27,750 nucleotides of DNA from a virus (IMGVR_UViG_3300037011_000287:1-27750); one strand, 5' to 3'; shown: positions 11,002 to 27,611, numbered from the stretch's first letter. Notes: a model not told the origin generated them from the sequence alone. Translations and numbers: made by a program.

Positions 11002-11021
11002 CGCCAATCACCGCCTTTAAC

Positions 11022-13333: not shown

Positions 13334-13337
13334 ATCG

Positions 13338-13826: not shown

Positions 13827-13850
13827 GGTCGTCGCCTTTTCCCTTCCCTG

Positions 13851-14326: not shown

Positions 14327-14338
14327 CTCACACCTCTC

Positions 14339-14393: not shown

Positions 14394-14398
14394 GCCGT

Positions 14399-14429
14399 GC
14401 CCCGAGGAGCCGGAGGAACCCCTCGGGGC
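14399..14429 (-). terminator. Stem-loop, 9-bp stem (GCCCCGAGG/CCTCGGGGC), possible terminator or mRNA stabiliser
   Basis: Perfect 9-bp stem with a 13-nt loop downstream of the 14462-15037 gene. There is no U-tract, so intrinsic termination is uncertain; protection of an upstream mRNA end is equally likely. Confidence 0.45.
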
Positions 14430-14442
14430 CCGGCCGTCCTGT

Positions 14443-14459
14443 GCGCTCGTCCCGAGCGC
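14443..14459 (-). terminator. Stem-loop, 7-bp stem (GCGCTCG/CGAGCGC), 3-nt loop
   Basis: Compact perfect hairpin immediately after the stop codon of the 14462-15037 gene, with no T-run. Together with 14399-14429 it makes a double-hairpin 3' end. Confidence 0.45.
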
Positions 14460-14461
14460 GT

Positions 14462-15037: not shown

Positions 15038-15050
15038 TCAACTCACCTCG

Positions 15051-15074
15051 GTAGGACAGGTCACCAGACCTGTC
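15051..15074. repeat. REP-like palindrome (GTAG head, GACAGGTC stem)
   Basis: GTAG is followed directly by GACAGGTC-ACCA-GACCTGTC (perfect 8-bp stem, 4-nt loop), then CGCC. A second copy lies at 25852-25876. Confidence 0.85.
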
Positions 15075-15098
15075 GCCTTTGCGCTTCTCACCTCACGT

Positions 15099-15138
15099 GC
15101 CCGGGAGGCGGGGATGCCTTACCCCCGCTCCCCCGGGC
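15099..15138 (-). terminator. Strong GC stem-loop downstream of capsid gene
   Basis: GCCCGGG and CCCGGGC arms extend through a bulged inner stem (GGCGGGG with CCCCGC) around ATGCCTTA, 35 nt after the capsid stop. There is no U-tract on the minus strand. It could stabilise or attenuate the capsid transcript. Confidence 0.5.
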
Positions 15139-15172
15139 GCATGGGATGGCGCGGATGTCCTTCAGAACCGGC

Positions 15173-16180
15173 CTACGTCACATCGGTATCGTAGACCACC
15201 TCGTCGGGGTTCGGCAGGTACGGCAGGAACGTGATCTCGCACTGCACCTTGATCGGATCGTTGATGTTCGGGCCCTCGACGACCCAAAAGAACATCCCCC
15301 GGCTGCTGTCACTCGCATGGAGCGACGCCGGTGCGCACTCGATCATTGCCCGGTCGGTGCTATCGCCGGCCAGGATGGCCACGAAGTCGTCCGGGATGAT
15401 GCTCGTCGCGGTCCCGGTCAGGTCGTTCACGTAGGTCTCATCAACATACGTCACGTCCAGCCCGGCGATTCGCGGGATGACTCCGTTCTCGCGGACCTGG
15501 TCCCGTGCATTGTCGCTCAGCAGATCAATGATCTCATCGTTGCCGGACAGGTAGGCGCCCGTCACCGAGTTCATCACCATATCGGTGGGCTGCTTGCCGC
15601 TGTCCTGGGCGATCTTGAGCTTCGCTGCGATGATCTCGGCGAGGACTCCGGTGCTGGCCGTCTGCCAGGCGCTCCCGATCGTCGCATGGTTGTTGGGCGT
15701 CGAGCTGTACCCCAGGCTCACGGTGGTGGCCGAAGCCGCTCCCGGGAGCGTGAACGAAAGACTCCCGGATGCGATGCCCAGGGCCTGGGCTGCAAGCAGT
15801 GCCTTCCGCTTGTTCACGCGGATTCTGAGCTGCTTCATCGCCCGCGCGACCCAGGCCGAGGCCGGCCCGATTGTCGTGCTGCCCGCGTCGCGCAGGCCCT
15901 TGATTACGGTGGCCGGCACGATGATCTCTTCCGACATCGTCAGCCCGGCCGCCATCACGGTCCCGCGAATCGGCGGCTTCACGGCATTCGGTGCGCCGCC
16001 GTAGATGTTGACCTGCGCCACGTCGCTCCCATACTTCACGATGTCGTACTGGACCTTGTTCCCCACCTCGACCGCCGGCCGATCCGGGAACCACTTCAGA
16101 AGCGCCGAGGGCGTTTCCGCCCCGAACTTCTCATAGAGCCCCTGCAAGTTGCGGGGCTCCAGCATCATTGGGATTGCCAT
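15173..16180 (-). CDS. Major capsid protein, lambda gpE-like (335 aa)
   Basis: Forms the icosahedral shell. It begins MAIPMMLEPRNLQGLYEKFG with a near-perfect Shine-Dalgarno site (AAGGAGG, 8-9 nt). Characteristic gpE-family features are a start describing a target conformation, the WFPDRPAVEVGNKVQYDIV segment, PPIRGTVM, and a C-terminal region with RIAGLDVTYVDETYVN ... IIPDDFVAILAG ... and VQCEITFLPYLPNPDEV. Length matches the lambda E family (about 340 aa). It is preceded by the decoration-like gene and the protease/scaffold, the lambda order C-Nu3-D-E. Confidence 0.9.
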   Translation of the reverse strand: MAIPMMLEPRNLQGLYEKFGAETPSALLKWFPDRPAVEVGNKVQYDIVKYGSDVAQVNIYGGAPNAVKPPIRGTVMAAGLTMSEEIIVPATVIKGLRDAGSTTIGPASAWVARAMKQLRIRVNKRKALLAAQALGIASGSLSFTLPGAASATTVSLGYSSTPNNHATIGSAWQTASTGVLAEIIAAKLKIAQDSGKQPTDMVMNSVTGAYLSGNDEIIDLLSDNARDQVRENGVIPRIAGLDVTYVDETYVNDLTGTATSIIPDDFVAILAGDSTDRAMIECAPASLHASDSSRGMFFWVVEGPNINDPIKVQCEITFLPYLPNPDEVVYDTDVT

Positions 16181-16214
16181 TGCCTGTGTTCCTCCTTTCT
16201 TCTGAAGCTGCCGC

Positions 16215-16865
16215 CTACGTGACCACGCCGGCGACAGTGTTGACGAAGTCCATCAGCGGCATCATGGCCTGCAGCCGCGTTACGGTGATGCCCAGCGCGA
16301 TGTTGAAGTTTAGCGCCGACTTCGCGATCTGCCCGGCGATGACGCCGATGCCGCCGCTGTCCACTGCCGTCCCCGCCGCATTGCGCAGGTCAACGGTCGC
16401 CTCCAAGACGACCGTGTCCTTCCATGCGGCGAGCACCGTGTTCTCTGCGACCTCAACGATGTCCCCGGAGACGACTGCCGTTGTCGCGTTGCCGGTCAGC
16501 TCCAGCGAGACGCCGGCCACAATGCTGGCGATGGTGCCCACCGCCAGCGGCACGGTGAGGCCCGGCGTCGCCTGTGCCACGACCACGATCACATCGCCGA
16601 CCGCGAACATGCTCGTCTCGACCACCGGCACCGAGCTCTGGCCGGTCGTGCAGCCGTTATCCGCCAACGTCATCCGCACCGGCTTGTACTTCCCGGTCGC
16701 CGGCACCGGCGCGAGCACGGTCCCCGCGGGGATCTCGCTCGTTGGCGCCACTGCCAGCGGGTCCAACGACGCGGCCAGGATGACCCCGGACCGCTTCAGC
16801 AGCATCTCCCGAAACCCGACGCCGTCCTTCCAGTTCTCCGACACATGGTCCCATATCGTTGCCAT
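16215..16865 (-). CDS. Putative head decoration protein (216 aa)
   Basis: Starts MATIWDHVSENWKDGVGF with AAGGAGG 8 nt upstream; an ATG-less 7-codon upstream extension is less likely. The segment AGTVLAPVPATGKYKPV closely resembles the gpD decoration family ('GtVLgk...tGKY.p'), and the remainder is a beta-rich domain followed by a helix-strand end (ALNFNIALGITVTRLQAMMP). It is longer than lambda gpD (110 aa), so a fused domain or a gpD-like N-terminus on a larger protein is possible. Position between scaffold and capsid gene is exactly that of gpD. Confidence 0.7.
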   Translation of the reverse strand: MATIWDHVSENWKDGVGFREMLLKRSGVILAASLDPLAVAPTSEIPAGTVLAPVPATGKYKPVRMTLADNGCTTGQSSVPVVETSMFAVGDVIVVVAQATPGLTVPLAVGTIASIVAGVSLELTGNATTAVVSGDIVEVAENTVLAAWKDTVVLEATVDLRNAAGTAVDSGGIGVIAGQIAKSALNFNIALGITVTRLQAMMPLMDFVNTVAGVVT

Positions 16866-16895
16866 TCGGTTGTCCTCCTTCCTCATCTACTCCTG

Positions 16896-16960
16896 TCGTT
16901 CTTTGCGCTCTCAGCGTTCCTTGCTGTTCTCTGCCTCTCTGCGCTGAGGCCTTTTCCGTC
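16896..16960 (-). repeat. Dispersed purine-rich repeat, degenerate copy
   Basis: Copy with core AGCGCAGAGAGGCAGAGA in the junction between protease/scaffold and decoration genes. Confidence 0.8.
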
Positions 16961-16963
16961 GCC

Positions 16964-17497
16964 TCACTTCGCCTGCGCCGCCACTGCCGTCAGCGCCCCA
17001 TCATCCATCGCTTCCGGCTCCGCGTTCGGGTCCTCGTTCCCGACCCAGCTGAGCCCACGGGCGTGGGTGGACACCTTCGGCCCCTGGGCGTCCAGGGTCG
17101 CGAAGTAGGCGTCCAGCGCAGGCGTCTCGACCGCGGTCTTGCCGTCGGCCGCGAAGATCTTGATCTTCGCCTCTTCCGGCAGGGCCATCGCCAGGGCGAT
17201 GATGGCCTCGCGCTGCGCCGGTGCAACGATCCCGCCGCGCACGCGCATGTCCACCAATGCCATGACCTTCTCGGCCCGAGCGTTGACGGCCACGGTCGCG
17301 ACCCGCGTCTCCAGCTCGCCGATGCGCTTATCGCGCTCTGCCAACTGGGCCATGTGTTCGGCCCGCAGCGTCGCCAGCGCATCCGGCTCACCGGCCGTCG
17401 CGTTCGCCATCACATCGGGCTCGCCCAGTTCCGCCAGGTCCTCCTCCGCCACGCCGGCCTTGGACAGCACCGCCTTCAGTCGGTCAAACCAGTTCAT
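16964..17497 (-). CDS. Nested in-frame scaffold protein (177 aa, internal start)
   Basis: An internal ATG (residue 213 of the protease) is preceded by AAAGGAGG with a 7-nt spacer, the best ribosome site in the window. It would produce MNWFDRLKAVLSKAG through the shared C-terminus: a predicted helical, coiled-coil scaffold. The same nested arrangement is established for lambda C/Nu3 and Mu I/Z, where the internal product is the scaffold. It is separated from the protease domain by a long hairpin at 17517-17552. Expression is inferred from the ribosome site. Confidence 0.75.
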   Translation of the reverse strand: MNWFDRLKAVLSKAGVAEEDLAELGEPDVMANATAGEPDALATLRAEHMAQLAERDKRIGELETRVATVAVNARAEKVMALVDMRVRGGIVAPAQREAIIALAMALPEEAKIKIFAADGKTAVETPALDAYFATLDAQGPKVSTHARGLSWVGNEDPNAEPEAMDDGALTAVAAQAK

Positions 17498-18133
17498 GCT
17501 GTTTCCTCCTTTCTGAGCGGACGTTGTCCGCGCATTCGCGGACGACGTCCGCGTTGCATCTCGCTTCATCGGGCGCACCTGATAGTCCGCCCGGTTGACG
17601 ACGAGTTCCCAGCCCAGCCCGGTCACCGCCGGATCATCCACCCAGGCCGCCCCCACCAATACCTTGCCGATGTCCTTCGACTCCCCGCTCGCCTGATCCA
17701 TCAGTTCGTAGCCGCTCGCAATCTCGCTGCTCAGGTACCGCAGTTGCCCCGAGCGCATTCCACATTCCATGCCATAGTCCACCACGAGGCAGTCCCCGAA
17801 CAGCACCTGTGCCTCCTGGTCGAACCACAGCAGCTTCCACCACGCCTGCACCGTGTCCGCCGGCAACGAGATTCGGTTGCCGTCGGCGTCATAGCTGTGC
17901 CGGTCCTTCAGTGCGGGCTCGATGCCTTCCACATCGCGGCGCAGCACGAAGTTATCGGCGATCTGCTGCATGTCAGGGACGGTCAAGGTCTCCCCGTTCC
18001 AGATCCCCGGCCGCGTGATCGGCAGTCCCCGGGCGAGTGTCTGCCCATCGCTCATCACGATCTGCACCGGATAGGTGGTCAGGTCGTTGGCAAACTGCAG
18101 CACCGTCGCCTTCTTCGCCGTCGCCTTCCGCAT
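16964..18133 (-). CDS. Prohead protease with C-terminal scaffold, Mu gpI-like (389 aa)
   Basis: Matures the prohead; the C-terminal part acts as scaffold. ATG at 18133 has GAGGG 7 nt upstream (a TTG at 18139 is the less likely alternative). The protease part (residues 1-185) has Mu I-like segments: YPVQIVMSDGQTLARGLPI, LRRDVEGIEPALKDRHSYD, LRYLSSEIASGYELMDQ and IGKVLVGAAWVDDPAVTGL. A linker (about 190-212) is followed by a helical scaffold part (DRLKAVLSKAGVAEEDLAELG, LRAEHMAQLAERDKRIGELETRV), with a C-terminus rich in Ala. An internal ATG with a perfect Shine-Dalgarno site begins the scaffold part. Neighbours are MuF upstream and decoration/capsid downstream. Confidence 0.87.
   Translation of the reverse strand: MRKATAKKATVLQFANDLTTYPVQIVMSDGQTLARGLPITRPGIWNGETLTVPDMQQIADNFVLRRDVEGIEPALKDRHSYDADGNRISLPADTVQAWWKLLWFDQEAQVLFGDCLVVDYGMECGMRSGQLRYLSSEIASGYELMDQASGESKDIGKVLVGAAWVDDPAVTGLGWELVVNRADYQVRPMKRDATRTSSANARTTSAQKGGNSMNWFDRLKAVLSKAGVAEEDLAELGEPDVMANATAGEPDALATLRAEHMAQLAERDKRIGELETRVATVAVNARAEKVMALVDMRVRGGIVAPAQREAIIALAMALPEEAKIKIFAADGKTAVETPALDAYFATLDAQGPKVSTHARGLSWVGNEDPNAEPEAMDDGALTAVAAQAK
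17517..17552. repeat. Long palindrome (16-bp stem, one mismatch, loop CATT) inside protease/scaffold linker
   Basis: GCGGACGTTGTCCGCG pairs with CGCGGACGACGTCCGC. It encodes the linker TRTSSANART and lies a few bases upstream of the internal Shine-Dalgarno site at about 17505-17512. Each arm is itself nearly palindromic. Confidence 0.88.
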
Positions 18134-18152
18134 AAGCAATCCCTCACTGTTC

Positions 18153-18209
18153 CCGCCGTTCTCTGCGTCCGTTCTCTGCGCTCTCTGCGTCTCTGCGCTG
18201 AGGCCTTAG
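18153..18209 (-). repeat. Dispersed purine-rich repeat
   Basis: Full copy between the MuF stop and the protease start, core AGCGCAGAGACGCAGAGA. Confidence 0.88.
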
Positions 18210-19237
18210 CCGTTCATCCCCGCCATGATCTCCTGGTACAGCTCCCTCAGCCCCGCCTTCTCGCTCGCTGCCAGCGGTGCATACAGGTCCTGCGGCTGCC
18301 GCGCCGGCGGGAACCCCGTCAGGTCGAGCCCCCCGAAGCCCTCCATCGGGTTCTCGGTCTCGGGGTCCGCGAGGTAGCCCGCGGCGGTGTCGAACTCCTC
18401 CGGCGTCTCGTCAAACAGCACCGGCTCCAGCTCGCTGCGGCACTCGAAGTGCAACGGTGGCGTGACCCCATCCACATCATCCACCGCGAAGATCATCCCG
18501 TTGAGATCATGGCACTCATCGGTGGTCCGGTCGTCATCCGGGTTGCTGAACTGCAGGCCGGTGACGCAGGAGCTGGCCGAGTACCTCGCCACGCTCCCAT
18601 GCACATAGAGCGTCGTGGCCTCGGTGCGCGCGATGTTCTCGCGCTGCAAGGCCGACTTCCCAAAGCCCTCATCTTCCAGCGCCCGCATCGCCTCTCTCGC
18701 CCCTCCACCCTCTTCGCTGATCCGCGCAATGATGTCCCGACAGAGCGCCTTGCGCTGCTCGCTGATGGTCCCCCGCAGGGGCACGACGCGCCCCTGGGCA
18801 TACCGCCGCACCGCCTCCACCGGCACCACCAGGTCCTCCCCTTCGAGCAGCAGCCGGATCGCCTCCGCCTCCAATCCAGCCCCGGAACCAAAAACAGCCG
18901 GCCCAGCAGCCTGCCGTCCCGCCGTTCTCTGCGTCCCTTCTCCGCGCTCTCCGCGTCTCTGCGTTGAGACTTTTGCCTTCGGCCTCACCAACCTCCCTCC
19001 CGCCCGCCTCAACATCTCCAGCGCCCGGCCGTTCGCATCGTGCCACGCCGCCGCGACACCCGCCTCGAAGGCCTGTTCCAGCTCCCCCACCAGGGGGTAG
19101 CTGACCGCCAGGGCCGCATGTGCTTCATCCGCCCGCCGGACCGCCTCGGCGCACTCCCCGAAGTATCTCCGGTCCCCAACCGCCAGGGCCTTTCGCAGGC
19201 TCTGCCAAATGTTGGCCATCCGCGCCTGCGCCTTCAT
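18206..19237 (-). CDS. Phage head morphogenesis protein, MuF-like (343 aa)
   Basis: Minor head protein associated with the portal. ATG at 19237 (MKAQARMANIWQSLRKAL) has AAGG 7 nt upstream; upstream codons in the same frame run through REP-like DNA and are rejected. The N-terminal part is helical. Residues about 87-106 are repeat-encoded (KVSTQRRGERGEGTQRTAG). The MuF core follows: IARTEATTLYVHGSVARYSA, then DDDRTTDECHDLNGMIFAVDD, then TPPLHFECRSELEPV, matching the conserved R-T-E, D-x-R-x-x-x-x-C-x-x-L-x-G and P-P-x-H-x-x-C-R elements of Phage_Mu_F. The C-terminus is acidic/helical. It follows the portal gene. Confidence 0.9.
   Translation of the reverse strand: MKAQARMANIWQSLRKALAVGDRRYFGECAEAVRRADEAHAALAVSYPLVGELEQAFEAGVAAAWHDANGRALEMLRRAGGRLVRPKAKVSTQRRGERGEGTQRTAGRQAAGPAVFGSGAGLEAEAIRLLLEGEDLVVPVEAVRRYAQGRVVPLRGTISEQRKALCRDIIARISEEGGGAREAMRALEDEGFGKSALQRENIARTEATTLYVHGSVARYSASSCVTGLQFSNPDDDRTTDECHDLNGMIFAVDDVDGVTPPLHFECRSELEPVLFDETPEEFDTAAGYLADPETENPMEGFGGLDLTGFPPARQPQDLYAPLAASEKAGLRELYQEIMAGMNG
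18919..18977 (-). repeat. Dispersed purine-rich repeat translated inside MuF
   Basis: Full copy (core AACGCAGAGACGCGGAGA) encoding STQRRGERGEGTQRTA between the N-terminal helical part and the MuF core. Confidence 0.88.
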
Positions 19238-19250
19238 GCCCCTGCCTTCT

Positions 19251-19312
19251 GTAGGCCCGACAATCCTGTCGGGCGCCGTTCCGAACGACAGCCCGACAAG
19301 ATTGTCGGGCCT
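19251..19312. repeat. Inverted pair of REP-like palindromes (BIME-like)
   Basis: First element: GTAG, stem GCCCGACA/TGTCGGGC, loop ATCC, then GCCGTTCC. Second element in opposite orientation: stem GCCCGACA/TGTCGGGC, loop AGAT, ending CTCC (GGAG on the other strand). It fills most of the gap between portal stop and MuF start. The first element is repeated exactly, over 32 nt, at 24861-24892. Confidence 0.9.
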
Positions 19313-19325
19313 CCAGACCCCGCCG

Positions 19326-20624
19326 CTACCCATACCGCCTCGCCTGTGCCGCCGCCGTTTTGCTTGCCGATGGCAGGGCTGCCCCTCCAAACGCTTCTGG
19401 CGCTTGGTCGGCGGGGGCGTAAAGCGCAGGGAAGGTCTGCCTGCGCTTCGCCTCATCCGCCGGCACGAAGGGCAGCCCGGCCATCGCACCCTCCGCCTTG
19501 CCCCGCTCGACGGTCTCGAACACGCGCGCCAGGTTTTCCATGTCGCTCGTCTGCAGCGGCCCCCATGCCCACTCCCCGGGCTCAGTCACATTCCCCTCGT
19601 TGTGCTCGATGATCGGCCCCACGAGCTGATCCACGATCACCTTCCCGACCTCTTGCCGCAGCCCGTCAATGACCATGTAGTACAGGTCCAGCACGGTCCC
19701 GGTCTGGGCCCGGCTTGCGTGCTCGGGTTCCTCCAGGACGATCCGCGGCGTGAACATGGAGTTGAACAGCTCGTTCTTCCAGTAATCGGTGAGTCGCTCG
19801 AAGGTCACGCTGGCGCCGTCGCTGGGCACCAGCGTCTTCATGTCCGGCACGAGTCCCTCTTGCAGCGGAAGCGACAATGCCATCCCCGGCTCGCACTTCG
19901 CCCACAGGTCCACCAACAGTTTCCCGATGGAGATGTCGTTTCCGGTCGCCGGGTCCTTCACCGTGCCCGCCGGCACGATGAAGACGGGCGTCGGCATCGC
20001 CGCCTTCTGGGCGAAGGTGTTCCAGTAATTCTCGACCTTGGTCTTGGAGAACCAGCCCCGTCTCGCGGCCGCCAGCAGGCTCTGCCCGAAGACCTCTTCC
20101 CTCAGCTCCGCGAACATCGGCCAGTACAGGATCTCCTCGACTGGCAGCTCGATGCTTTCCTCACCGGGCTTGGAGTTGAACTGCCGCACCTTCTCCACCC
20201 GACCACTCTTCGGGTCGAGCTGCAGCCCTGTCGCATCTTCGGGGCGGCTCGCATTCCGGTTGAAGAAGGTCAGCGGGTGCAGCAAGTCTACCCGTGAGAC
20301 CCACCACTCCGACGCCTCTGTCGCCCAGATCGGTTCTGCGACCGCGAAGCCCGCCCAGAGCGCCGACAGTAGGTCGCCCACTACCCTCTCCATTCCGCCC
20401 TCCACCCGCGACAGCCACCCATTGACGCGCTCCGTGAGCTGACCATCGGGATGCCGGTAGCCTCCCAGGGTGTTCAGGATCAAAGTCCGCAGGAGCGCCA
20501 GCACGCGCTTCGTGGTGGGCTCATAGGTCCGCATCAGCCAGTATTCGGCGATGAGCTGTGCCCGGGGCGCGAACTTCTTGTAGGGCCCCGCCTGCCACTC
20601 TTCCCAGCCCTCCTGCGCGATCAT
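19326..20624 (-). CDS. Portal protein, Mu gp29-like / DUF935 (432 aa)
   Basis: Forms the dodecameric DNA-entry channel. Start chosen at MIAQEGWEEWQAGPYKKF (GGGAG about 5 nt upstream). The frame stays open for 64 more codons upstream, but that part is repeat-derived and low complexity. DUF935 features: an early helix (AEYWLMRTYEPTTKRVLALLRTLIL), DLLSALWAGFAVAEPIWA, WWVSRVDLLHPLTFFNRNA, EEILYWPMFAELREEVFGQSLL, WFSKTKVENYWNTFAQKAAMPTPVFIVPAG, and a C-terminal crown region with FNSMFTPRIVLEEP. Length is close to the family norm. It lies between TerL and MuF. Confidence 0.88.
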   Translation of the reverse strand: MIAQEGWEEWQAGPYKKFAPRAQLIAEYWLMRTYEPTTKRVLALLRTLILNTLGGYRHPDGQLTERVNGWLSRVEGGMERVVGDLLSALWAGFAVAEPIWATEASEWWVSRVDLLHPLTFFNRNASRPEDATGLQLDPKSGRVEKVRQFNSKPGEESIELPVEEILYWPMFAELREEVFGQSLLAAARRGWFSKTKVENYWNTFAQKAAMPTPVFIVPAGTVKDPATGNDISIGKLLVDLWAKCEPGMALSLPLQEGLVPDMKTLVPSDGASVTFERLTDYWKNELFNSMFTPRIVLEEPEHASRAQTGTVLDLYYMVIDGLRQEVGKVIVDQLVGPIIEHNEGNVTEPGEWAWGPLQTSDMENLARVFETVERGKAEGAMAGLPFVPADEAKRRQTFPALYAPADQAPEAFGGAALPSASKTAAAQARRYG

Positions 20625-20701
20625 CCCACTCCCGCGCTCCGGCGCCCTTCCCGCATCCCCCGCCGCGAATGTCCGCACCCCACCGCCCGGGTCTTGCCGT
20701 T

Positions 20702-20723
20702 GTGGGAGGGACATTCCTGTCCC
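20702..20723. repeat. REP-like palindrome (GTGGGA head, GGGACA/TGTCCC stem)
   Basis: A 6-bp stem around TTCC followed by GACGCCG, the same GCC-rich tail as the other REP-like elements. It lies in the TerL-portal gap and overlaps a rejected upstream ATG for the portal. Confidence 0.7.
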
Positions 20724-20740
20724 GACGCCGTCCGCCGTCG

Positions 20741-20776
20741 CCGTTGACAGTCCACCGTCAACGGCCGACAGTCCAC
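20741..20776. repeat. Hairpin CCGTTGAC/GTCAACGG plus direct repeats of GACAGTCCAC
   Basis: An 8-bp stem with 8-nt loop; GACAGTCCAC occurs inside it and again 20 or so nt downstream. With the palindrome at 20702 it makes the 160-nt TerL-portal gap almost wholly repetitive. Confidence 0.7.
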
Positions 20777-20787
20777 GCCGTCTCCTC

Positions 20788-22395
20788 TCACGCGTACTGC
20801 GCGACATAGCTCCCACTTCCCATCACGTAGTCCGCGATCGTCGCCGTCACCCGGGCCGCCTCCGGCGCCGCCTCGCAGCTCCACGCCAGCGAGTACACGG
20901 TGTCATCGTGCCCGGATTGCGTGCCCCACTTCCAGATGCCGGCGCTCCGCCCGTACTCGAAGTTCAGCAGCTCGCTCTTGAGCAGCCCCGGCTGCCGCTT
21001 GCGTGGGTCGAAGCCACAGTCTTGCGGGTAGCCGATCCGCCGCTCGTTGAACAAGCGATACAGGCCGTTGAAAAGCTGCCTCTGGTGCGGGCTACTGGGG
21101 CTTGCCAGCTCCGCCCGCCGCACCTTCCCCACCAGGTCCACGCAGTTGAAGTACTCCATGCGCGTCTCGCACCCGAGAGGTCCGCAGATCGCCGCGAGCT
21201 CCCGGAACGCCGCCAGGATCTCCGCCTCCTCCCCGGTCTCGAACACCCACACCCGGATCACCCGGTACTGCTCCACGCCCGCCCCGCCGTTGCCTCCCCC
21301 CAGCCCGCCGTTCCGCGTCCCTCTCTGTGTCTCTGTGTTCTCTGTGTCAAAGCCTTTGCCTCTGCCTGCCTGCTCCCTCGGGCTGAACTTCGCCGTCGCC
21401 GTCAGCACGCTCCGGTCCCCCGTGGCCGACACTCCGGCTCTGTCCAGTCCCGCGCCGATGACGCAGTCCCAGCCCCCGAAGCCCCACTCCCTGATCCGCT
21501 CCTGGAGGTCGGCGTGGCTATAGCACTCCGCATACTCCATGGCCGCGGCGCCCAGGGCCTGCGCCTCGAACAGCTTCTGACCGAGCCCGGCCCACAGGTT
21601 GCGGTGCAGGGCATCGAACTCCGCCGGCGTCAGCTCCGCCCGCTGCTGCTGCGCCAGCTTGATACCCCAGGCCGTCCGATGCTCCTCCGAGTAGTCAAAC
21701 AGGATGTGCGGCTCATCTCGGGCGAGCCAGAGCCGCCACACCGGGTTGTCCAGCTCCGGCGATCCGGCCTGCGTCGAGATCGCCACCTGCGAGCCTCGCA
21801 TCTCCGTCTGCGCCCGCAGGTAGTTGTACGCCCGGATGTCCGCCACCGCGTGTAGCTCGTCAACCATCAAAAGGGACGGCACCGCGATCCCCTGTACCGT
21901 TCGGTAGTTACAGGGTAGGCAGGTGATCTCATTGCCCAGCTCAGGGATGGTCAGCGTCCGCTTCCCGATCTGGTCCTCTGCCACCCAGCCTCCCAGCCGT
22001 GGAGAATTGCGTAAAAAGCCGACGATCTCGTCATAGATAATCGAGGCCGCCTGCTCTTTCGAGTTGGCAAGGATCACGGACTTCTGCTTCGTGAAACACA
22101 TCGCCCGGTGGGCTCCCAGCAGGGACACCCCCAGCGACTTCCCTTCGCGCTTGGGCCAGGACGCCACCACGATTTTTTTGGCCAGGTCCCCGTTCGGGTC
22201 CCGGGCCGTCGCCCCCCGCAGCCACTCTTTCTGATGCGCGTCGAGCCGCAGGGACCCCATGAGGCCGGTGTCGGGCCGCTGAATGTGAACGACTTCCTCC
22301 GCCCAGGCGACGATGTCCTCCTTCCACCGCGCGAGCAGCCGCTTCCGTTCTGCCCGATCATCTCGCCCCTGTGTCGCCGTTGCCGTCCCCATCAT
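20788..22395 (-). CDS. terL: Terminase large subunit (about 535 aa)
   Basis: DNA-packaging ATPase and nuclease. It starts MMGTATATQG with GGAGGG just upstream; the second ATG (22392) has the better spacing. The ATPase has an adenine/Walker A region VVASWPKREGKSLGV (about residues 77-90), Walker B LLMVDELHA (175-183) and coupling motif AISTQAGSP (205-213). The RNase H-like nuclease has GAGLDRAG (315-321, first Asp), EYFNCVDL (414-421) and GHDDTVYSLAW (495-505, last Asp). The VDELH signature places it with Terminase_1-type large subunits. Residues about 341-374 are a repeat-encoded insert (TENTETQRGTRNGGLGG) between two nuclease strands. All catalytic residues appear retained. Confidence 0.95.
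   Translation of the reverse strand: MMGTATATQGRDDRAERKRLLARWKEDIVAWAEEVVHIQRPDTGLMGSLRLDAHQKEWLRGATARDPNGDLAKKIVVASWPKREGKSLGVSLLGAHRAMCFTKQKSVILANSKEQAASIIYDEIVGFLRNSPRLGGWVAEDQIGKRTLTIPELGNEITCLPCNYRTVQGIAVPSLLMVDELHAVADIRAYNYLRAQTEMRGSQVAISTQAGSPELDNPVWRLWLARDEPHILFDYSEEHRTAWGIKLAQQQRAELTPAEFDALHRNLWAGLGQKLFEAQALGAAAMEYAECYSHADLQERIREWGFGGWDCVIGAGLDRAGVSATGDRSVLTATAKFSPREQAGRGKGFDTENTETQRGTRNGGLGGGNGGAGVEQYRVIRVWVFETGEEAEILAAFRELAAICGPLGCETRMEYFNCVDLVGKVRRAELASPSSPHQRQLFNGLYRLFNERRIGYPQDCGFDPRKRQPGLLKSELLNFEYGRSAGIWKWGTQSGHDDTVYSLAWSCEAAPEAARVTATIADYVMGSGSYVAQYA
21306..21360 (-). repeat. Dispersed purine-rich repeat translated inside TerL nuclease domain
   Basis: CACAGAG-type copy encoding FDTENTETQRGTRNGG, in frame, between the strands TATAKFSP and YRVIRVWVFETG. 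Confidence 0.88.
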
Positions 22396-22399
22396 TCCC

Positions 22400-22472
22400 T
22401 CCGTTCTCAGCGTCCGTTCTCCGCGTTCTCCGCGTCATTTGCGCTCACGCGTGAGCGCGAGCGTTGAAGCCG
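22400..22472 (-). repeat. Dispersed purine-rich repeat interrupted by a perfect palindrome
   Basis: Copy upstream of TerL. Where others run straight into the AACGCAGAGA end, this one contains the 18-bp palindrome at 22441-22458. Confidence 0.8.
22441..22458. repeat. Perfect 18-bp palindrome GCGCTCACGCGTGAGCGC upstream of terL
   Basis: Fully self-complementary with no loop, about 45 nt before the TerL start. A near-match, GCTCACGCGTAAGC, is at 24785-24798. It could be a protein-binding site or another inserted palindrome. Confidence 0.75.
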
Positions 22473-22498
22473 TCGCCGCCCCCCCCCCAGAACGCAAA

Positions 22499-22529
22499 GC
22501 GCGCCCAGGGATGCCCAACCTGGACGCGC
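22499..22529 (-). terminator. Possible intrinsic-like terminator after the 22554-22931 gene
   Basis: GCGCGCCCAGG and CCTGGACGCGC (11-bp stem, one mismatch, 9-nt loop). On the minus strand it is followed by TTTGCGTT, a weak U-tract. A G-run (22481-22489) lies further downstream. Confidence 0.45.
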
Positions 22530-22553
22530 TGTGAAAGTCGCTTGCCCCAGAGC

Positions 22554-22931
22554 TTAGTTCACGCAGATCAGCTTGTCAAGTACAAGTTTGAACCCCTGAA
22601 CCTCCGCGATCGTGAACTCCACGCCCGGCTTCTCACTCATTACCTGCTTCAGCCGGCGCAGGATCGCCTGCACCATCGCCTTCTCCACCTGGCAGCCCGT
22701 GAGTTGACCGCACCCCGCCGAGCCCCCGACCCCATCGCCCTTGAGCATGTTGCCGGCCTCGCGTTGTGATGCGGCGCTGGCCTCGATGCTCTGCAGCCAG
22801 TCCCCCAGCTCCCAGTACTCCGGCGCCTCCACGGCCAGGGCCCGGCTCAGGCGCCGTTCCCGCAGCCACTGCGCCCGAAACAGCGCCTGTGTCTTCAGCC
22901 TGCGATCCTCGATCCGCCCTGGCGTCTCCAT
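22554..22931 (-). CDS. Small unknown protein upstream of TerL (125 aa)
   Basis: Start METPGRIEDRRLKTQALFRA follows AAAGGCGGG; an alternative ATG at 22991 (MANGQRRM) would read through a REP-like palindrome and has poor spacing. The protein is highly charged and helical (FRAQWLRERRLSRALAVEA, AMVQAILRRLKQVMSEKPGVEF), with a Gly-rich centre containing two cysteines (GGSAGCGQLTGCQVEK). Adjacency to TerL suggests a packaging or regulatory role, for instance an alternative small-terminase candidate, but no HTH is recognised. Confidence 0.6.
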   Translation of the reverse strand: METPGRIEDRRLKTQALFRAQWLRERRLSRALAVEAPEYWELGDWLQSIEASAASQREAGNMLKGDGVGGSAGCGQLTGCQVEKAMVQAILRRLKQVMSEKPGVEFTIAEVQGFKLVLDKLICVN

Positions 22932-22948
22932 CCGGTTCCCGCCTTTCT

Positions 22949-22972
22949 GTAGCATGACCGTCTCGGTCATGC
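22949..22972. repeat. REP-like palindrome (GTAG head, GCATGACCG stem)
   Basis: GTAG overlaps a 9-bp perfect stem GCATGACCG/CGGTCATGC with loop TCT, followed by GCCGTTGG. A degenerate copy is at 26668-26697. Confidence 0.85.
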
Positions 22973-22996
22973 GCCGTTGGCCATTCGCCATCCCCC

Positions 22997-23239
22997 TCAC
23001 TGCAAGCCTCCCCCGCGCCCGTGGGCCGCACAGGTGCCCGACGTGATGACAGAGCAGGAGTGGCAAGCCTCCCCCGCTTCCTCCTCCGCGTGCAGCAGAT
23101 GTGGGACCTCTTCCCAGGCCGCCTCGCGATAGACATGATGGCCCCGCTCCATGTTGCCCAGGGCGATCTGCAGGAGCCTCTCCGGCGCGACGCCTTCCGC
23201 GATCTGTCTCACGCCCTCCAGCTTCTCCTTCAGCTCCAC
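22997..23239 (-). CDS. Small protein with C-terminal cysteine/histidine knuckle (80 aa, GTG start)
   Basis: A GTG start at 23239 lies one base from the stop of the upstream gene, with GGAGG 9 nt upstream (within that gene). The sequence VELKEKLEGVRQIAEGVAPERLLQIAL is a helical N-terminus, followed by GNMERGHHVYREAAWEEVPHLL. The C-terminus has CHSCSVITSGTCAAHGRG, a possible C-x2-C-x8-C-x2-H metal-binding knuckle. Longer ATG starts at 23284 overlap the upstream coding sequence and are less likely. Function is unknown; a small zinc-binding regulator is conceivable. Confidence 0.58.
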   Translation of the reverse strand: MELKEKLEGVRQIAEGVAPERLLQIALGNMERGHHVYREAAWEEVPHLLHAEEEAGEACHSCSVITSGTCAAHGRGGGLQ

Positions 23240-23240
23240 C

Positions 23241-24239
23241 CTACCCCACCTCCCCCGTCGCCACATACCGCCCGAAGACCTCAAACTGCCCAGTGGCGCT
23301 CAAAAACTCCGCCATCAGCTCCCCGGCCCCAAGCCTCGCCTCCGTCACGACCCCGTTCGGCATCAACCTACGCCCATGCTCATCCGACAGCATTCTGCCG
23401 ATCCCGGTGTAAGATGTCTCCAGACCATGACTACCGTCCCCGCCATCCCCGCCGTCCGCCTTCGCCTCCCCATCCCTCGCCGTCTCCGCCGTTCTTTGCG
23501 GCTGTGCCGTCCCCTGCGTTCTCTGCGTCTCTGCGCTGGCCTTTGCCGTCGCCTTCCCCTTCCCTCTGCAGGCCTTCTCCACCGCGCTCGACGCCACTTC
23601 CAGCCCCAGCAGCTTCGGCACCTCCCCCCACGTCTTGCCTTCCGCCCTCAGCTTCTTCACCACTTCCCGCACGCTCAGTCCCTCGCATCCCTCCGGGCAG
23701 TTCTCCCCCAGCGCCTCCGCCGCATCCTCATCCCAGATTCCTCGCCTGACCCGCGGCCCTCCCCTGGCCACCGTCGCCAGCTTCGATACGATGCTGCTCA
23801 CTGTGCATCCCATCTCCCTCGAGATCGAATTGGCGGAGTCCCCTGCAGCGATCCTACGCTGCACCCATTCCAGGAGCTTTTCCTCCTTCGGCGTCCCCAC
23901 TCTCTCCACTCTGGCCGGCTCCACCGTCTCCGACGCCGGCCGATTCCACTTGATCGTCCCACCCATTGGCATCTCCTTCTCCTCCCTTCCCGTCGTCTCT
24001 GCGCTCTTCGCGGCCGTTTCCGTTCTCTGCGTCTCTGCGTTGAAGCCTTCGCCTTCCCCATCCCACAGTCGCTGCATCCTCCCCCGCCATTCCTCCTCTG
24101 TCTCATGCCTCTCGCACTGTTCCTTCACGCACCGCTGCGGGTTCGGCTCCTTCCCCCGGGTATTGCACCAGTACCTCGTGGGCCTCCCGGCCCGCGAGTC
24201 CTTCTTTTCCAGCGATCTGCACATGCCCGCCTCGCCCAT
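23241..24239 (-). CDS. HTH protein fused in frame to a Cys-rich leader, carrying two repeat insertions (332 aa)
   Basis: ATG at 24239 overlaps the TGA of the ASCH gene (TGATG). Residues 1-60 contain a Cys pattern (MCRSLEKKD, RYWCNTRGKEPNPQRCVKEQC) that could bind metal. Residues about 62-83 are repeat-encoded (FNAETQRTETAAKSAE). Residue 90 is an internal ATG (MPMGGTIKWNRP) with a strong GGGAGGAGAAGGAG just before it, so two proteins may be made. Residues about 115-150 look like a helix-turn-helix (KLLEWVQRRIAAGDSANSI, SREMGCTVSSIVSKLATVA), and a second helical motif follows (VREVVKKLRAEGKTWGEVPKLLG). Residues about 231-251 are a second repeat insert (ASAETQRTQGTAQPQRTA). DNA binding is likely; target unknown. 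Confidence 0.62.
   Translation of the reverse strand: MGEAGMCRSLEKKDSRAGRPTRYWCNTRGKEPNPQRCVKEQCERHETEEEWRGRMQRLWDGEGEGFNAETQRTETAAKSAETTGREEKEMPMGGTIKWNRPASETVEPARVERVGTPKEEKLLEWVQRRIAAGDSANSISREMGCTVSSIVSKLATVARGGPRVRRGIWDEDAAEALGENCPEGCEGLSVREVVKKLRAEGKTWGEVPKLLGLEVASSAVEKACRGKGKATAKASAETQRTQGTAQPQRTAETARDGEAKADGGDGGDGSHGLETSYTGIGRMLSDEHGRRLMPNGVVTEARLGAGELMAEFLSATGQFEVFGRYVATGEVG
23487..23548 (-). repeat. Dispersed purine-rich repeat translated inside the HTH protein (second copy)
   Basis: Encodes AETQRTQGTAQPQRTAETA between the second helical motif and the C-terminal domain, without breaking the frame. Confidence 0.85.
23970..23990 (-). promoter_or_regulatory. Strong internal ribosome-binding site and ATG in the HTH gene
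   Basis: GGGAGGAGAAGGAG directly precedes ATG at 23972. It would yield a 243-aa HTH protein without the Cys-rich leader and first repeat copy. Confidence 0.6.
23991..24053 (-). repeat. Dispersed purine-rich repeat translated between leader and HTH parts
   Basis: Full copy (core AACGCAGAGACGCAGAGA). It probably sat between two separate genes; because it has no stop in this frame it now joins them. Confidence 0.85.
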
Positions 24240-24847
24240 CAGCGCATCGCCTCCGGCAAGTCCAGACATCCTTGCTTGCCGCCCAACACATCCCCCATCC
24301 CACCATCCCAGTTCCACAGCCGCCGTCCTCCTCGCACCGGCACGGGCGGATCGAGCATCTCGACCACCTCCAGTTCCCAGGCCCACCGCCCATAGGACCA
24401 ATCGCCCAAAAACTTCTCCTGGTCGCCGATCAGCAACCCATATTCCCCATGGCTCACACGGTAATCAGCAGCGTTGGTGCTGACGCACCGCACGAATCGA
24501 CACACGCAAAGTATGACATCACGCGGCAGCCCCCATGGTCCAGTCTCCACCCCATGACGCTTCAGGATGTCCAGCAGGTCTCCGGTCTCATCATCGGCCC
24601 AGTCGTCCATCCGCGGCACCCGCAACGCCGCATGGATCGCCAGCAGGGAACCCGCGCAAAACCCAAGGGACGACGGCCGCCAGGACCGGGTCTCGAACCG
24701 CTTTTCTTTCCAGGCGACGAGCGACGCCCAGGGCTGCCATAGCGAGATTGCCTTCATGCCCGCTAAACTCCCTTCCGCCCATTCGCTCACGCGTAAGCCC
24801 ATTACCGGATTGACCGTCTCATCACACCACCCGATCGGGTTGCTCAT
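24239..24847 (-). CDS. ASCH-domain protein with DUF5131-like N-terminal stub (202 aa; core 172 aa from 24757)
   Basis: The core begins MKAISLWQPWASLVAWKEKRFETRSW (start 24757, AAGGGAG upstream), the canonical N-terminus of ASCH/PUA-like proteins, with the K-x-x-E-x-R signature in KEKRFETR. ASCH proteins bind RNA or modified nucleotides. Further typical elements are LLAIHAALRVP, GLPRDVILCVCRFVRC and HGEYGLLIGD...WELEVVEML. The frame extends upstream to MSNPIGWCDETVNPVMG, which has a better Shine-Dalgarno site (GGAGG, 8 nt) and resembles the first 16 residues of DUF5131 (phage Gp37/Gp68) proteins. So either a fusion after deletion, or two possible starts. TGATG couples it to the next gene. Confidence 0.82.
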   Translation of the reverse strand: MSNPIGWCDETVNPVMGLRVSEWAEGSLAGMKAISLWQPWASLVAWKEKRFETRSWRPSSLGFCAGSLLAIHAALRVPRMDDWADDETGDLLDILKRHGVETGPWGLPRDVILCVCRFVRCVSTNAADYRVSHGEYGLLIGDQEKFLGDWSYGRWAWELEVVEMLDPPVPVRGGRRLWNWDGGMGDVLGGKQGCLDLPEAMR

Positions 24848-24860
24848 GCCGTCTCCCTCC

Positions 24861-24892
24861 GTAGGCCCGACAATCCTGTCGGGCGCCGTTCC
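24861..24892. repeat. REP-like element identical to 19251-19282
   Basis: GTAG head, GCCCGACA/TGTCGGGC stem, loop ATCC, tail GCCGTTCC. The remaining part of the gap 24893-24984 is C/T-rich, with a GGGACC...GGTCC-type imperfect hairpin (CCGGGACCCCGCC / CTCGGGGTCC), and no gene seen. Confidence 0.9.
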
Positions 24893-24984
24893 TCCGTCCC
24901 CATCCTCACCGTCTCCCCGGCCCCCTCGAAGCCTTACCTCCCCCGGGACCCCGCCCCGCTCGGGGTCCTCCTCCTCTCCGGTCC

Positions 24985-25443
24985 CTACCCCGGCACGTCA
25001 TCCGGCCCCTCCATGTTCCGCCCGAGCTGCAGCTCCAGACTGACGATCGGGTCCGCCACAGCCAGCAACGCGACGCCGGTGATCGTCGGGTTTGCCAGCA
25101 GCGTTGCCGTGATGATCGCCACGCCTTCCTCGCGGCCCCTCACGAGGTCGCCCACGACCTCCGCATACACCCCGTCACTGGCCGAGTAGTCTGCCGGCGA
25201 CAGGTCCACGATGACCCCGGACTTCTTGACCGCCACGACCTTGAGCAGGCACTCCTCACCGACTTCGATCTGATCCACTGGCACCCACATGTTCTGTCTC
25301 AGCTCCTTCCAGATGCTGACGCGAAACCCGATCATCGGGTCTTTGCGCCTCGCGATGATCCATGCCAGTCCTATCCACACCCCCACCAGCGCCAGCCCAA
25401 GCCACAGCCATCCCACTGGCCACTCCTCCTTCCTCGTCTTCAT
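24985..25443 (-). CDS. Single-span membrane protein of unknown function (152 aa)
   Basis: A basic start (MKTRKEEWPVG) leads into a hydrophobic helix (WLWLGLALVGVWIGLAWII, about residues 12-31), followed by RRKDP, so the soluble part is predicted cytoplasmic or the protein is a signal-anchor type. The soluble domain is beta-rich (VPVDQIEVGEECLLKVVAVKKSGVIVDLSP, GVAIITATLLANPTITGVAL). ATG is preceded by GCGAGG from the end of the dispersed repeat, 5 nt away. The family is not recognised; phage accessory genes of this kind often act at the host membrane, but nothing specific is visible. Confidence 0.62.
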   Translation of the reverse strand: MKTRKEEWPVGWLWLGLALVGVWIGLAWIIARRKDPMIGFRVSIWKELRQNMWVPVDQIEVGEECLLKVVAVKKSGVIVDLSPADYSASDGVYAEVVGDLVRGREEGVAIITATLLANPTITGVALLAVADPIVSLELQLGRNMEGPDDVPG

Positions 25444-25449
25444 TCAGGC

Positions 25450-25510
25450 CTCGCCGTTCTCCGCGTCCGTTCTCTGCGCTCTCCGCGTCTCTGCGTTGAG
25501 GCCGTTGCCG
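25450..25510 (-). repeat. Dispersed purine-rich repeat
   Basis: Full copy (core AACGCAGAGACGCGGAGA) that starts right after the stop of the DUF4406-like gene. Its end supplies the GAGG ribosome site of the gene starting at 25443. Confidence 0.9.
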
Positions 25511-25840
25511 TTACCCCCTCAGCTCCTCCAGCGTCAGGTACACCCGGATGCCTTCCTCCCTCGCCGCCCGCACTTCGATGGCCGTCCCCTCGGACTGTTC
25601 CAGCCCGGGCCCCTGCACTAGGAGCACCGCGTCGCACCGTTCGAGCTGCGCGAGCCCGTTGCGCAGGTAGACCTCATCCGCCAGGTCGTAGGCCTCGAGG
25701 GGGTGCGTCATGGTGTGGGGGCAGATGACCTCATGCCCCAGCCGCAGGACCTCGACGGAGAGGTCCGCGGCGCGCCCGATGTTGGCTAGCACTTCCCCCG
25801 GCGTCGCCGCTCGATACGCCCCTGCGATGTACACCAGCAT
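25511..25840 (-). CDS. DUF4406 / nucleoside 2-deoxyribosyltransferase-like protein (109 aa)
   Basis: Start MLVYIAGAYRAATPGEVLAN with GGAGG 5 nt upstream; longer starts are rejected because they read through a REP-like palindrome. The family pattern is visible: YIAGAYR at the N-terminus, N-I-x-R-A helix, LRLGHEVICPHTMTHPL, a central D in LERCDAVLLVQGPG, and EGTAIEVRAAREEGIRVY, with the Glu of the TAxEV motif in the usual catalytic position of 2-deoxyribosyltransferases. Such proteins are common in phages and may act on nucleosides or bind nucleotides; substrate unknown. Small size matches DUF4406. Confidence 0.83.
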   Translation of the reverse strand: MLVYIAGAYRAATPGEVLANIGRAADLSVEVLRLGHEVICPHTMTHPLEAYDLADEVYLRNGLAQLERCDAVLLVQGPGLEQSEGTAIEVRAAREEGIRVYLTLEELRG

Positions 25841-25851
25841 GGCACCCTCCG

Positions 25852-25876
25852 GTAGCGACAGGTCACCAGACCTGTC
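25852..25876. repeat. REP-like palindrome (GTAG head, GACAGGTC stem)
   Basis: GTAG-C followed by GACAGGTC-ACCA-GACCTGTC, same stem and loop as 15051-15074. It lies between the small-terminase-like gene and the DUF4406-like gene. Confidence 0.85.
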
Positions 25877-25911
25877 ATGTGGGCCAGCCAATCCTGCCCT
25901 TCCGCCGTCCC

Positions 25912-26652
25912 TCAGGCCTCGCCGTTCTCCGCGGCCTTTCTCTGCGCTCTCCGCGTCTCTGCGTTGGCCGTTGCCGTCCCCGCCGTCCCGTCCTCCACCT
26001 CGAACTCCCCTTCCAGCATCGTCTGCTGCCCTGCCTCTCTCCGTTCCCGAAGCTCCTCCTCCACCTCCGCAAACAGGTCCAGCATCCCCTGCAGCGGCGA
26101 TCCGGCGCGCGTGAGCCGCAGTCTCGACTGCGCCGCCGGCGTCAGCCCGAGCTTCTCCGCGTAGTTCAGAGCGGCTGCATCTACCCGCATCCGCATCTCC
26201 CAGATCGCCGAGGGATGCAACCCATCGGAGGTGTCCTTGCGGAACAGCCCGTCCATCTGCACGTGCTTGTCAATGACCTCCAGCAAGACGATCAACTTCC
26301 CGTAGGCGCGCACCTGATCCTGGGCCAGGGGGGTGATATGCTCCGCGGCGGTGACCCGCGCGATGACCTCCTCCGTTGCCCGGGCCGCCTGGATGCAGAG
26401 CCCTCCGGGCGAGAACTCATCACACAAGTGCGAGACCAGGCAGATGTCGCATCCCGGCGCCATGCCGGTCTCCATCATCCGGTACAGGCCATGGGACGTG
26501 CTGCGCGCGGAGATCACCGCGAGCCCCTCGGCTGTCTTGGGCCCACCGCCGCGGTTCCCCCCGGGGTCCCCGACCCGCCGCCCCGTCCGCCCCGTGCTCG
26601 CCCGCGAGCGCATGGGGACTTCCTGCTCCTGATCCTGCTCGTCATCGAACAT
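25912..26652 (-). CDS. Probable terminase small subunit, P27-like (246 aa)
   Basis: Recognises phage DNA for packaging if correctly assigned. ATG at 26652 (MFDDEQDQEQEVPMRS) has GAGGGAG 8 nt upstream. After an acidic/basic N-terminus the segment GGGPKTAEGLAVISARSTSHGLYRM resembles the 'GPKTxEGKxxSxxNxxxHGLY' element of terminase-small-like phage proteins, followed by cysteines CDICLVSHLCDEFSPGGLC. The centre is helical (AQDQVRAYGKLIVLLEVIDKHVQ). The end, WEMRMRVDAAALNYAEKLGLTPAAQSRLRL, matches the P27-family C-terminus. The last 20 or so residues (TANAETRRAQRKAAENG) are encoded by the dispersed repeat. It is separated from TerL by about 3.5 kb. Confidence 0.68.
   Translation of the reverse strand: MFDDEQDQEQEVPMRSRASTGRTGRRVGDPGGNRGGGPKTAEGLAVISARSTSHGLYRMMETGMAPGCDICLVSHLCDEFSPGGLCIQAARATEEVIARVTAAEHITPLAQDQVRAYGKLIVLLEVIDKHVQMDGLFRKDTSDGLHPSAIWEMRMRVDAAALNYAEKLGLTPAAQSRLRLTRAGSPLQGMLDLFAEVEEELRERREAGQQTMLEGEFEVEDGTAGTATANAETRRAQRKAAENGEA
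25919..25976 (-). repeat. Dispersed purine-rich repeat translated as a C-terminus
   Basis: Full copy encoding NAETRRAQRKAAENGEA, then stop, in the small-terminase-like gene. Confidence 0.88.
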
Positions 26653-26667
26653 CACGCCGTCTCCCTC

Positions 26668-26697
26668 ATAGCATGACCGTCTCGCCCATGCGCCGTT
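26668..26697. repeat. Degenerate REP-like palindrome (ATAG head, GCATGACCG arm)
   Basis: Same left arm, loop TCT and GCGCCGTT tail as 22949-22980, but the right arm (CGCCCATGC) has lost pairing. It lies immediately upstream of the small-terminase-like start. Confidence 0.7.
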
Positions 26698-26710: not shown

Positions 26711-26864
26711 CCTCGCCGTTCTCCGCGTCCGTTCTCCGCGCTCTCCGCGTCTCTGCGTTGAGGCCTTCCTCCCCCAAACCCCTCCCGCGCTCAAAGCCGC
26801 CCCCCTCCCCTCCCTCGCCCCCCGACCCCCCGACCGATTCGATGGGGGTGCCCCGGCCTCGCCG
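26711..26864 (-). repeat. Dispersed purine-rich repeat followed by C-rich spacer without a gene
   Basis: The repeat occupies 26711-26768 (core AACGCAGAGACGCGGAGA). The remainder up to the integrase stop is a C/T-skewed spacer; no ORF or hairpin of note was seen. Confidence 0.85.
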
Positions 26865-27536
26865 TCATTCCACGTTTCGCGTTCCGCCTTCCGCCCCCAT
26901 GGCCTGCGCCAGGCGCGTCGGGTGCACGTGCGCGTACCGCTCGGTCATCGTGCTGCTGGCGTGCCCGGCCACCGTCTGCACCATCCGCAGGTCCTGTGTG
27001 CGGTCATAGAGCGCGGTCAGGGCCGTGTGCCGCAGCATGTGTGGGTGCACGCGTCGCTCAATGCCCGCCTCCTGGGCCAGCCGCCTCACCAGTTCGCGCA
27101 CATAGCGCCCGTCCAGCGCCCGACCGCGCACCAGCTCGCCCTCACCCTGGCTGAACCCCGCCCGCCGCTTCCCCTCGCTGATCGTCCCAAACAGCGGCCA
27201 CGCCGCGCCGTTGATCCCCAGCTTCTCCCGCCATGCCTCCCACAGTTGCAGCGCCGCTACCGTCTCCACCGACAGCGGGATGCCGATCCGCTCGCGCTGT
27301 CGCTTCGTCGCCCGCGCCGGCAGCCGCAGCACCCAGACTTTCCCGTCCATGCCTGGCCAGTCCTCACGCCGCAGGTCCCCCACCGTCGCCTTGAGCGCCT
27401 CGCCGCAGCGTACGCCGGCCTGGGCCATGAGCTGCAGGAGCGCATAGTTGCGCGCTCCACTCGCCGTGCTGGTGTTGATATGCTCGAACATAGCCTTTAT
27501 CTCGGCCTCGCTCAGGACTTCCGTCAGCTCTGTCAT
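26865..27536 (-). CDS. int: Tyrosine recombinase / phage integrase, catalytic domain only (223 aa)
   Basis: Site-specific recombinase for integration. ATG at 27536 (MTELTEVLSEAEIKAMF) has GGGAGG 8 nt upstream; the longer frame to 27611 would start inside the promoter. Catalytic residues: Arg43 in AGVRCGEAL, a Lys in the beta-hairpin region (ARATKRQRERIGIPL, about residues 76-90), His166-x-x-Arg169 in HPHMLRHTALT, His192 in AGHASSTMT and nucleophile Tyr201 in ERYAHVHP. The N-terminal SAM-like core-binding and arm-binding domains are missing: the protein begins at the catalytic domain. It is complete in catalytic residues, so activity is plausible. It is the first gene of the minus-strand cluster. 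Confidence 0.93.
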   Translation of the reverse strand: MTELTEVLSEAEIKAMFEHINTSTASGARNYALLQLMAQAGVRCGEALKATVGDLRREDWPGMDGKVWVLRLPARATKRQRERIGIPLSVETVAALQLWEAWREKLGINGAAWPLFGTISEGKRRAGFSQGEGELVRGRALDGRYVRELVRRLAQEAGIERRVHPHMLRHTALTALYDRTQDLRMVQTVAGHASSTMTERYAHVHPTRLAQAMGAEGGTRNVE

Positions 27537-27557
27537 CAGGTCCGCCTCCCTGTGTTT

Positions 27558-27585
27558 AATACCACTATACCCTATTCGTGGTATT
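27558..27585. promoter_or_regulatory. Inverted repeat AATACCAC-N12-GTGGTATT, candidate operator
   Basis: Perfect 8-bp arms lie between the -10 hexamer and the integrase ribosome site, overlapping the -10 by three bases. This is a typical repressor or autoregulator position. It is the most AT-rich spot in the window. Confidence 0.65.
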
Positions 27586-27611
27586 GTATAGAGGCAGTCG
27601 CGCCCTGTCAA
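27583..27611 (-). promoter_or_regulatory. Sigma70-type promoter for integrase (TTGACA-17-TACAAT)
   Basis: On the minus strand a perfect -35 TTGACA (27606-27611) is separated by 17 nt from TACAAT (27583-27588), one base off consensus TATAAT. The transcript start would be near 27576, about 40 nt before the integrase ATG. Confidence 0.78.

Follow-up and report, generated by a model that had tools for sequence, protein, structure and literature searches.

The window analysed here, a contig of the IMG/VR virus collection (IMGVR_UViG_3300037011_000287; 27,750 nt, 66% GC), carries short hairpins with a GTAG-type head in the gaps between its genes. We read them as six single elements and one REPIN-like pair of the GTAG superfamily of repetitive extragenic palindromes (REPs), a REPIN being two inverted REPs separated by a short spacer, inserted by a REP-associated tyrosine transposase (TnpA-REP/RAYT) of the bacterial host, and we put the probability of this reading at roughly 0.78. 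In the proposed mechanism the host enzyme would recognise its own stem-loop and the GTAG-type head on single-stranded DNA, cut, and then join the short element into phage DNA during phage replication or the prophage stage; copies that end up in intergenic gaps, most often close before a ribosome-binding site, would be the ones to survive.

Headed hairpins in the window

The elements, by coordinates and strand, are:

15051-15074, plus: family B REP, GTAG-GACAGGTC-ACCA-GACCTGTC, in the gap upstream of gene 14462-15037 (minus)
19251-19274, plus: family A REP, GTAG-GCCCGACA-ATCC-TGTCGGGC
19291-19314, minus: second family A REP, inverted, GGAG head, stem GCCCGACA, in the portal/minor-head gap
20702-20723, plus: family D REP-like element, GTGG-GA-GGGACA-TTCC-TGTCCC, in the terminase/portal gap
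22949-22972, plus: family C REP-like element, GTAG head, 9-bp stem GCATGACCG-TCT-CGGTCATGC whose first base is the final base of the head
24861-24884, plus: family A REP, adjoining the Shine-Dalgarno sequence of gene 24239-24847 (minus) on its upstream side
25852-25876, plus: family B REP, one additional C after the head
26668-26691, plus: degenerate family C element, head ATAG, stem imperfect

Seven of these had been listed in an earlier note on this DNA, and all seven were found, with the four stems it gave: GACAGGTC (15051, 25852), GCCCGACA (19251, 24861), GCATGACCG (22949 and, degenerate, 26668) and GGGACA (20702). The eighth, the inverted copy at 19291-19314, had been overlooked; it forms with 19251-19274 a pair of inverted REPs across a short spacer, hence the REPIN-like pair in the portal/minor-head gap. 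Families A, B and C have two to three copies each in the window, and family D one. The common head proposed for the seven is GTAG itself in five, all with a perfect stem, and a relative in the other two, GTGG at 20702 and ATAG at 26668. The window thus shows what characterises a GTAG REP, a stem-loop of 20-40 nt with GTAG or a GTGG-like tetranucleotide immediately on its 5' side.

Palindromes could arise by chance in intergenic DNA this rich in GC, and hairpins without a GTAG head are also present, but five GTAG-headed perfect hairpins were observed against a mean of 0.075 and a maximum of 1 in 200 order-2 Markov shuffles. With all 256 tetranucleotides tried as heads, only AGGC tied with GTAG, a word that is three times as common and overlaps with GTAGGC. 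The density of headed hairpins is 2.74 per kb in noncoding sequence and 0.24 in coding sequence, an 11-fold difference. The recurrence of families A, B and D elsewhere, as described below (exact copies in another phage, near-exact copies in bacterial genomes, no matches to a control), refutes chance for these three, and family C has its two copies in the window alone; for the set as a whole we find a chance origin barely credible.

Family A is linked to RAYT genes in planctomycete genomes

One viral contig besides the window, G001, contains the exact 24-mer of family A, GTAGGCCCGACAATCCTGTCGGGC; the 20-nt stem-loop of this sequence is present there in 14 exact copies, several of them within the open reading frame (ORF) of the head protease. 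G001 belongs to a different phage, unrelated to that of the window, with tape measure, scaffold, head protease and repressor genes. Part of this ORF (locus L003, 1369-1530) consists of three 69-nt tandem units, each with a stem A REP, in frame. The GTDB-representative collection yielded a single occurrence of the 24-mer, in the Planctomycetota metagenome-assembled genome FR_29 (G002). With at most one mismatch allowed, 39 copies of family A were found in 6 of 392 Planctomycetota genomes, 5-13 in each of five and a single one in G195; the reversed control gave none. Both in G001 and in five of the six Planctomycetota genomes, then, family A is dispersed and multicopy, as is expected of a REP.

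Each of the six genomes has between 5 and 28 Y1 transposase genes. In three of them, G002, G122 and G106, palindromes of the GT[AG]G-GCCCGACA type bracket a RAYT ORF: copies of GTGGGCCCGACAATC[CT]TGTCGGGC stand in inverted orientation on its two sides, at a distance of about 590 nt from each other. The products score 91.1 (G002) and 86.8 bits (G106) with NF047646, the NCBIfam equivalog for RAYTs (cut-off 80), and 22-24 bits with PF01797, around its cut-off of 23; that of G002 also matches the TnpArep structure PDB 4er8 (E=2.4e-4). Their motifs are PDHVH or PDHTH, and YIR[ML]NPV around the expected tyrosine (PDHVH and YIRMNPV in G002). The Y1 HUH domain, the PDHVH-type motif, the catalytic tyrosine and a score above cut-off were found together in bacterial genes and in none of the window. 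Scans of the window bore out the earlier statement that it has no RAYT gene, and no such gene was found in phage contigs G001 and L095 (see below) either. Judged from these loci, family A is a RAYT-linked REP, since a RAYT gene between inverted copies of the palindrome is the association that defines a REP family. The element is predicted to be cut and transferred by its own TnpA-REP. The flanks of the stem A copies show no single consensus for the cleavage dinucleotides that the guide model of PMC8266576 predicts.

Some other Y1 genes of G002, G106 and G122 (at L021, L049, L066 and others) lie between inverted palindromes with CCCGGCCC, CCGGGGGC and CACGGGCG stems, so that different stems pair with different RAYT genes in these genomes. 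A scripted search for palindromes around other RAYT loci recovered few pairs because it required strict heads.

A record of insertion is provided by one bacterial coding site, which is empty in G195 (KYYKEDSVAYASFGE), occupied by one REP in G002 (KYYTGRPDNPVGQSPVVFASFGE) and by two tandem copies in G122. The net difference between the first two is 24 nt, or eight codons, in frame. The FR_29 ORF that holds this REP resembles what we take to be a 2-oxo-acid dehydrogenase E1 alpha subunit.

Placement, orientation and flanking words

For six of the seven plus-strand elements of the window, 11-17 nt separate the head from the start codon of the gene downstream, and the head abuts the Shine-Dalgarno sequence, as in CTAC|GGAGGGAGACGGC-ATG on the gene strand. 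Uniform random placement within the gaps yields distances this short in about 3 per million trials (P about 3e-6), with gene starts picked by eye and two of them off by about 1 base in the script. The seven heads share one orientation (P=0.016), the inverted eighth copy aside. The same is seen in G001, where 12 of 13 independent events are on one DNA strand (P=0.003) although the coding strand changes from minus to plus near 10.9 kb. Such constant orientation in the two phages would fit insertion into one single strand, the mode of action known for HUH enzymes of the IS200/IS605 type (PMC6006769).

Close and uniform placement before start codons is also what might be expected if the hairpins were stem-loops of 5' untranslated regions encoded by the phage itself, immobile and selected for an effect on mRNA stability, translation insulation or attenuation. 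Orientation in G001 follows the DNA strand despite the switch in gene strand, however, and copies there lie within coding sequence; identical 24-mers recur in this unrelated phage, and near-identical ones beside RAYT genes in bacterial genomes. Moreover L106, the relative of the window phage described in the next section, does not have the same hairpins at homologous gaps and has other repeats in their place. We therefore consider a purely regulatory origin improbable.

The earlier note had also proposed that a fixed tail, GCCGTT or similar, belongs to the element along with the head. GCC[GT]TT does follow the stem directly in five of the seven window elements, but the tail did not stand up as a part of the REP, because GCCGTT is enriched in noncoding sequence mostly away from REPs (6.85 per kb against 0.93 in coding sequence, 7-fold; the majority of its 20 noncoding occurrences) and is missing from the bacterial copies: stem A in the six genomes has no GCCGTT-like tail. 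In G001 a tail-like word stands 3 nt off stem A in some copies only. We reject it in favour of an intergenic filler word of the phage; AACGGC and AAAGGC fillers border the CAGAGA-type repeats of the window as well. That GCC[GT]TT abuts five of seven stems is not fully explained by this reading.

Repeats at homologous gene junctions of a related phage

Contig L106 (11.3 kb) is syntenic with 11870-22395 of the window over 11 consecutive proteins of 54-77% identity; it surfaced only through the family D hairpin. At none of ten homologous gene junctions do the two share a repeat. The family D element, in the terminase/portal gap of the window, lies in L106 between the homologues of genes 13886-14326 and 14462-15037, and the portal/minor-head gap, which holds the stem A pair in the window, holds an inverted pair with another stem (GCGACCA) in L106. 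Further L106 gaps hold ATTCATC, CAGAGA, TGTCA and long GAGCTGC-type inverted repeats. With no common repeat at ten junctions and family D at a different one in each phage, these elements are evidently gained and lost in phages, and much faster than the genes diverge.

The elements might be true REPs acquired otherwise than through a RAYT, by recombination with intergenic DNA of the host or by exchange of gap modules between phages. Repeats that are not REPs (CAGAGA, ATTCATC and GAGCTGC types) also differ between the window phage and L106 at homologous gaps, and REP and CAGAGA-type modules adjoin the same AAC/AAA-GGC filler words, as such exchange would lead one to expect. The net in-frame 24-nt insertion in the bacterial gene and the copies in phage coding sequence argue instead for insertion of a minimal unit, and the single-strand orientation in G001 fits strand-specific insertion; recombination is an explanation that we take seriously and yet hold to be unlikely.

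Several other repeats were seen in these phages. A second dispersed repeat of the window, CAACGCAGAGACGCGGAGAGCGCAGAGAACGG on the gene strand with the variant CACAGAGA, occurs at about 13 gene junctions, including 2103-2152, 14339-14384, 18151-18200, 25449-25498 and 26711-26760, and like the REPs is bordered by AACGGC/AAAGGC fillers; a literature search with these repeat words found no relevant paper. The tandem repeat ATTCATCATTCATC is present at two gene junctions of the window, 4944-4985 and 13846-13887, and, at a neighbouring, non-homologous junction, at 1387-1454 of L106. At 5928-6031 of L106 a CAGAGA-type repeat is inserted into the head protease gene without breaking its frame and encodes NAKTQRRRERP. 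The L106 gaps at 821-930, 2466-2720, 3297-3419 and 4422-4539 hold degenerate GAGCTGC units in long inverted arrays, some of them centred on AAAGGC, and a comparable array, made of GAGCTT/GAGCATT units, is present in G001 (L003, about 815-890). Close to a gene end in the window, at 11319-11402, is a 21-nt tandem repeat, TCCGCCTTCTGACTTCTGACT.

Families B, C and D

Three copies of family B (GACAGGTC) with a GTAG head were found in L095, a third phage with portal, major head and adaptor genes. Two of them, at 5678 (plus) and 5754 (minus), form an inverted, REPIN-like pair upstream of the ribosome-binding site of the head-tail adaptor gene. Family D (GGGACA) recurs with its head in L106, over 27 identical nt. 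Most of the 17 matches to GGGACATTCCTGTCCC lack a GTAG-like head and were set aside as probable chance or unrelated hairpins, and likewise the single match to family C in other phages, which is without a GTAG head and chance-like.

The families thus comprise at least one proven REP, A, and three probable ones, B, C and D. The proposal that several lineages were mobilised by related enzymes is borne out for A by the flanked RAYT and the occupied and empty site; that B, C and D would each have a RAYT of their own we infer.

The phage and its genes

The window genes are on the minus strand and comprise a structural and packaging set and an integrase:

8659..11007, minus: tail tape measure protein (phrog_8462, E=1.6e-36)
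15173..16180, minus: major head protein (phrog_29, E=2.7e-19)
16964..18139, minus: head maturation protease (phrog_976, E=6.9e-11)
19326..20660, minus: portal protein, start approximate (phrog_113, E=6.2e-19)
20788..22395, minus: terminase large subunit (phrog_9, E=5.7e-13)
26865..27611, minus: tyrosine recombinase / phage integrase (Pfam PF00589, E=4.5e-27; NCBIfam XerC/D-like, under cut-off)

With tape measure, head, protease, portal and terminase genes beside an integrase, its annotation marks the window as a temperate phage or prophage. No tRNA genes were found in it, and no relatives by capsid or terminase protein in IMG/VR or by terminase among annotated phages. Planctomycetota as hosts of this phage are unsupported: the 392 genomes gave no terminase relatives, in a search run without a positive control.

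Discussion

Several observations weigh against insertion by a host RAYT. The empty site is in a bacterial gene, not a phage one, and its series of occupied and empty states is imperfect, the G106 orthologue having a partial, diverged copy. Differences between the gaps of the window and L106 could also stem from recombination, and turnover there does not by itself show a RAYT to be the agent. Family C (GCATGACCG) with a GTAG head was found nowhere outside the window; families B and C each gave one isolated one-mismatch match, and no cluster, in the 392 Planctomycetota genomes, and family D none in the six genomes that hold family A. No RAYT was found for B and C in the 392 genomes or for D in the six, a set that may not include the host. 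Even so, a host RAYT remains in our view the probable inserter of these elements.

REPs themselves are already known; what appears new is their abundance in phages. A full-text search of open-access papers found no literature on REPs in phage genomes. RAYTs and REPINs have been described as vertically inherited, with replicative horizontal spread unlikely and RAYTs not seen on plasmids (PMC8049555). That family A flanks RAYT genes in planctomycetes and also occurs at phage gene junctions points to phages acquiring, and perhaps transferring from host to host, an element considered almost exclusively vertically inherited. More tentatively, and with the balance of our judgement slightly against it, temperate phages might be regular landing sites and vehicles for host REPs and REPINs, host RAYTs inserting them into one phage strand and phages then seeding new hosts; if true, such seeding would contradict the view of REPINs as essentially vertically inherited. 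Four phage contigs with GTAG/GTGG-type hairpins, one type tied to RAYTs in bacteria, make this horizontal route testable. In a wider form, the gene junctions of these phages would swap several classes of short repeat far faster than the surrounding genes diverge, and the window and L106 are a natural experiment on the rate of this turnover.

Three known systems bear comparison. The TnpA-REP/RAYT Y1 HUH transposases (PMC8266576, in which REP cutting by TnpA-REP and the role of GTAG were published; NF047646; PDB 4er8) have their counterpart in the genes that family A palindromes enclose in G002, G122 and G106, with the difference that the window, G001 and L095 do not have the gene. The inverted pairs at 19251-19314 and in L095 resemble REPINs (Bertels and Rainey 2011, PMC3116915), whereas the window copies are mostly single REPs. 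The third is the GTAG-tagged REP superfamily (Di Nocera et al. 2013, PMC3733652), reported from Planctomycetes among others and described as having intragenic copies, GTGG heads and several families per genome, in a text with no word starting with "phage". The elements described here share with it the GTAG/GTGG head, a stem of 6-9 bp, a short loop, singles alongside inverted pairs, several families, intragenic copies and a RAYT flanked by the repeats, and differ from it in being phage-borne and placed immediately before ribosome-binding sites.

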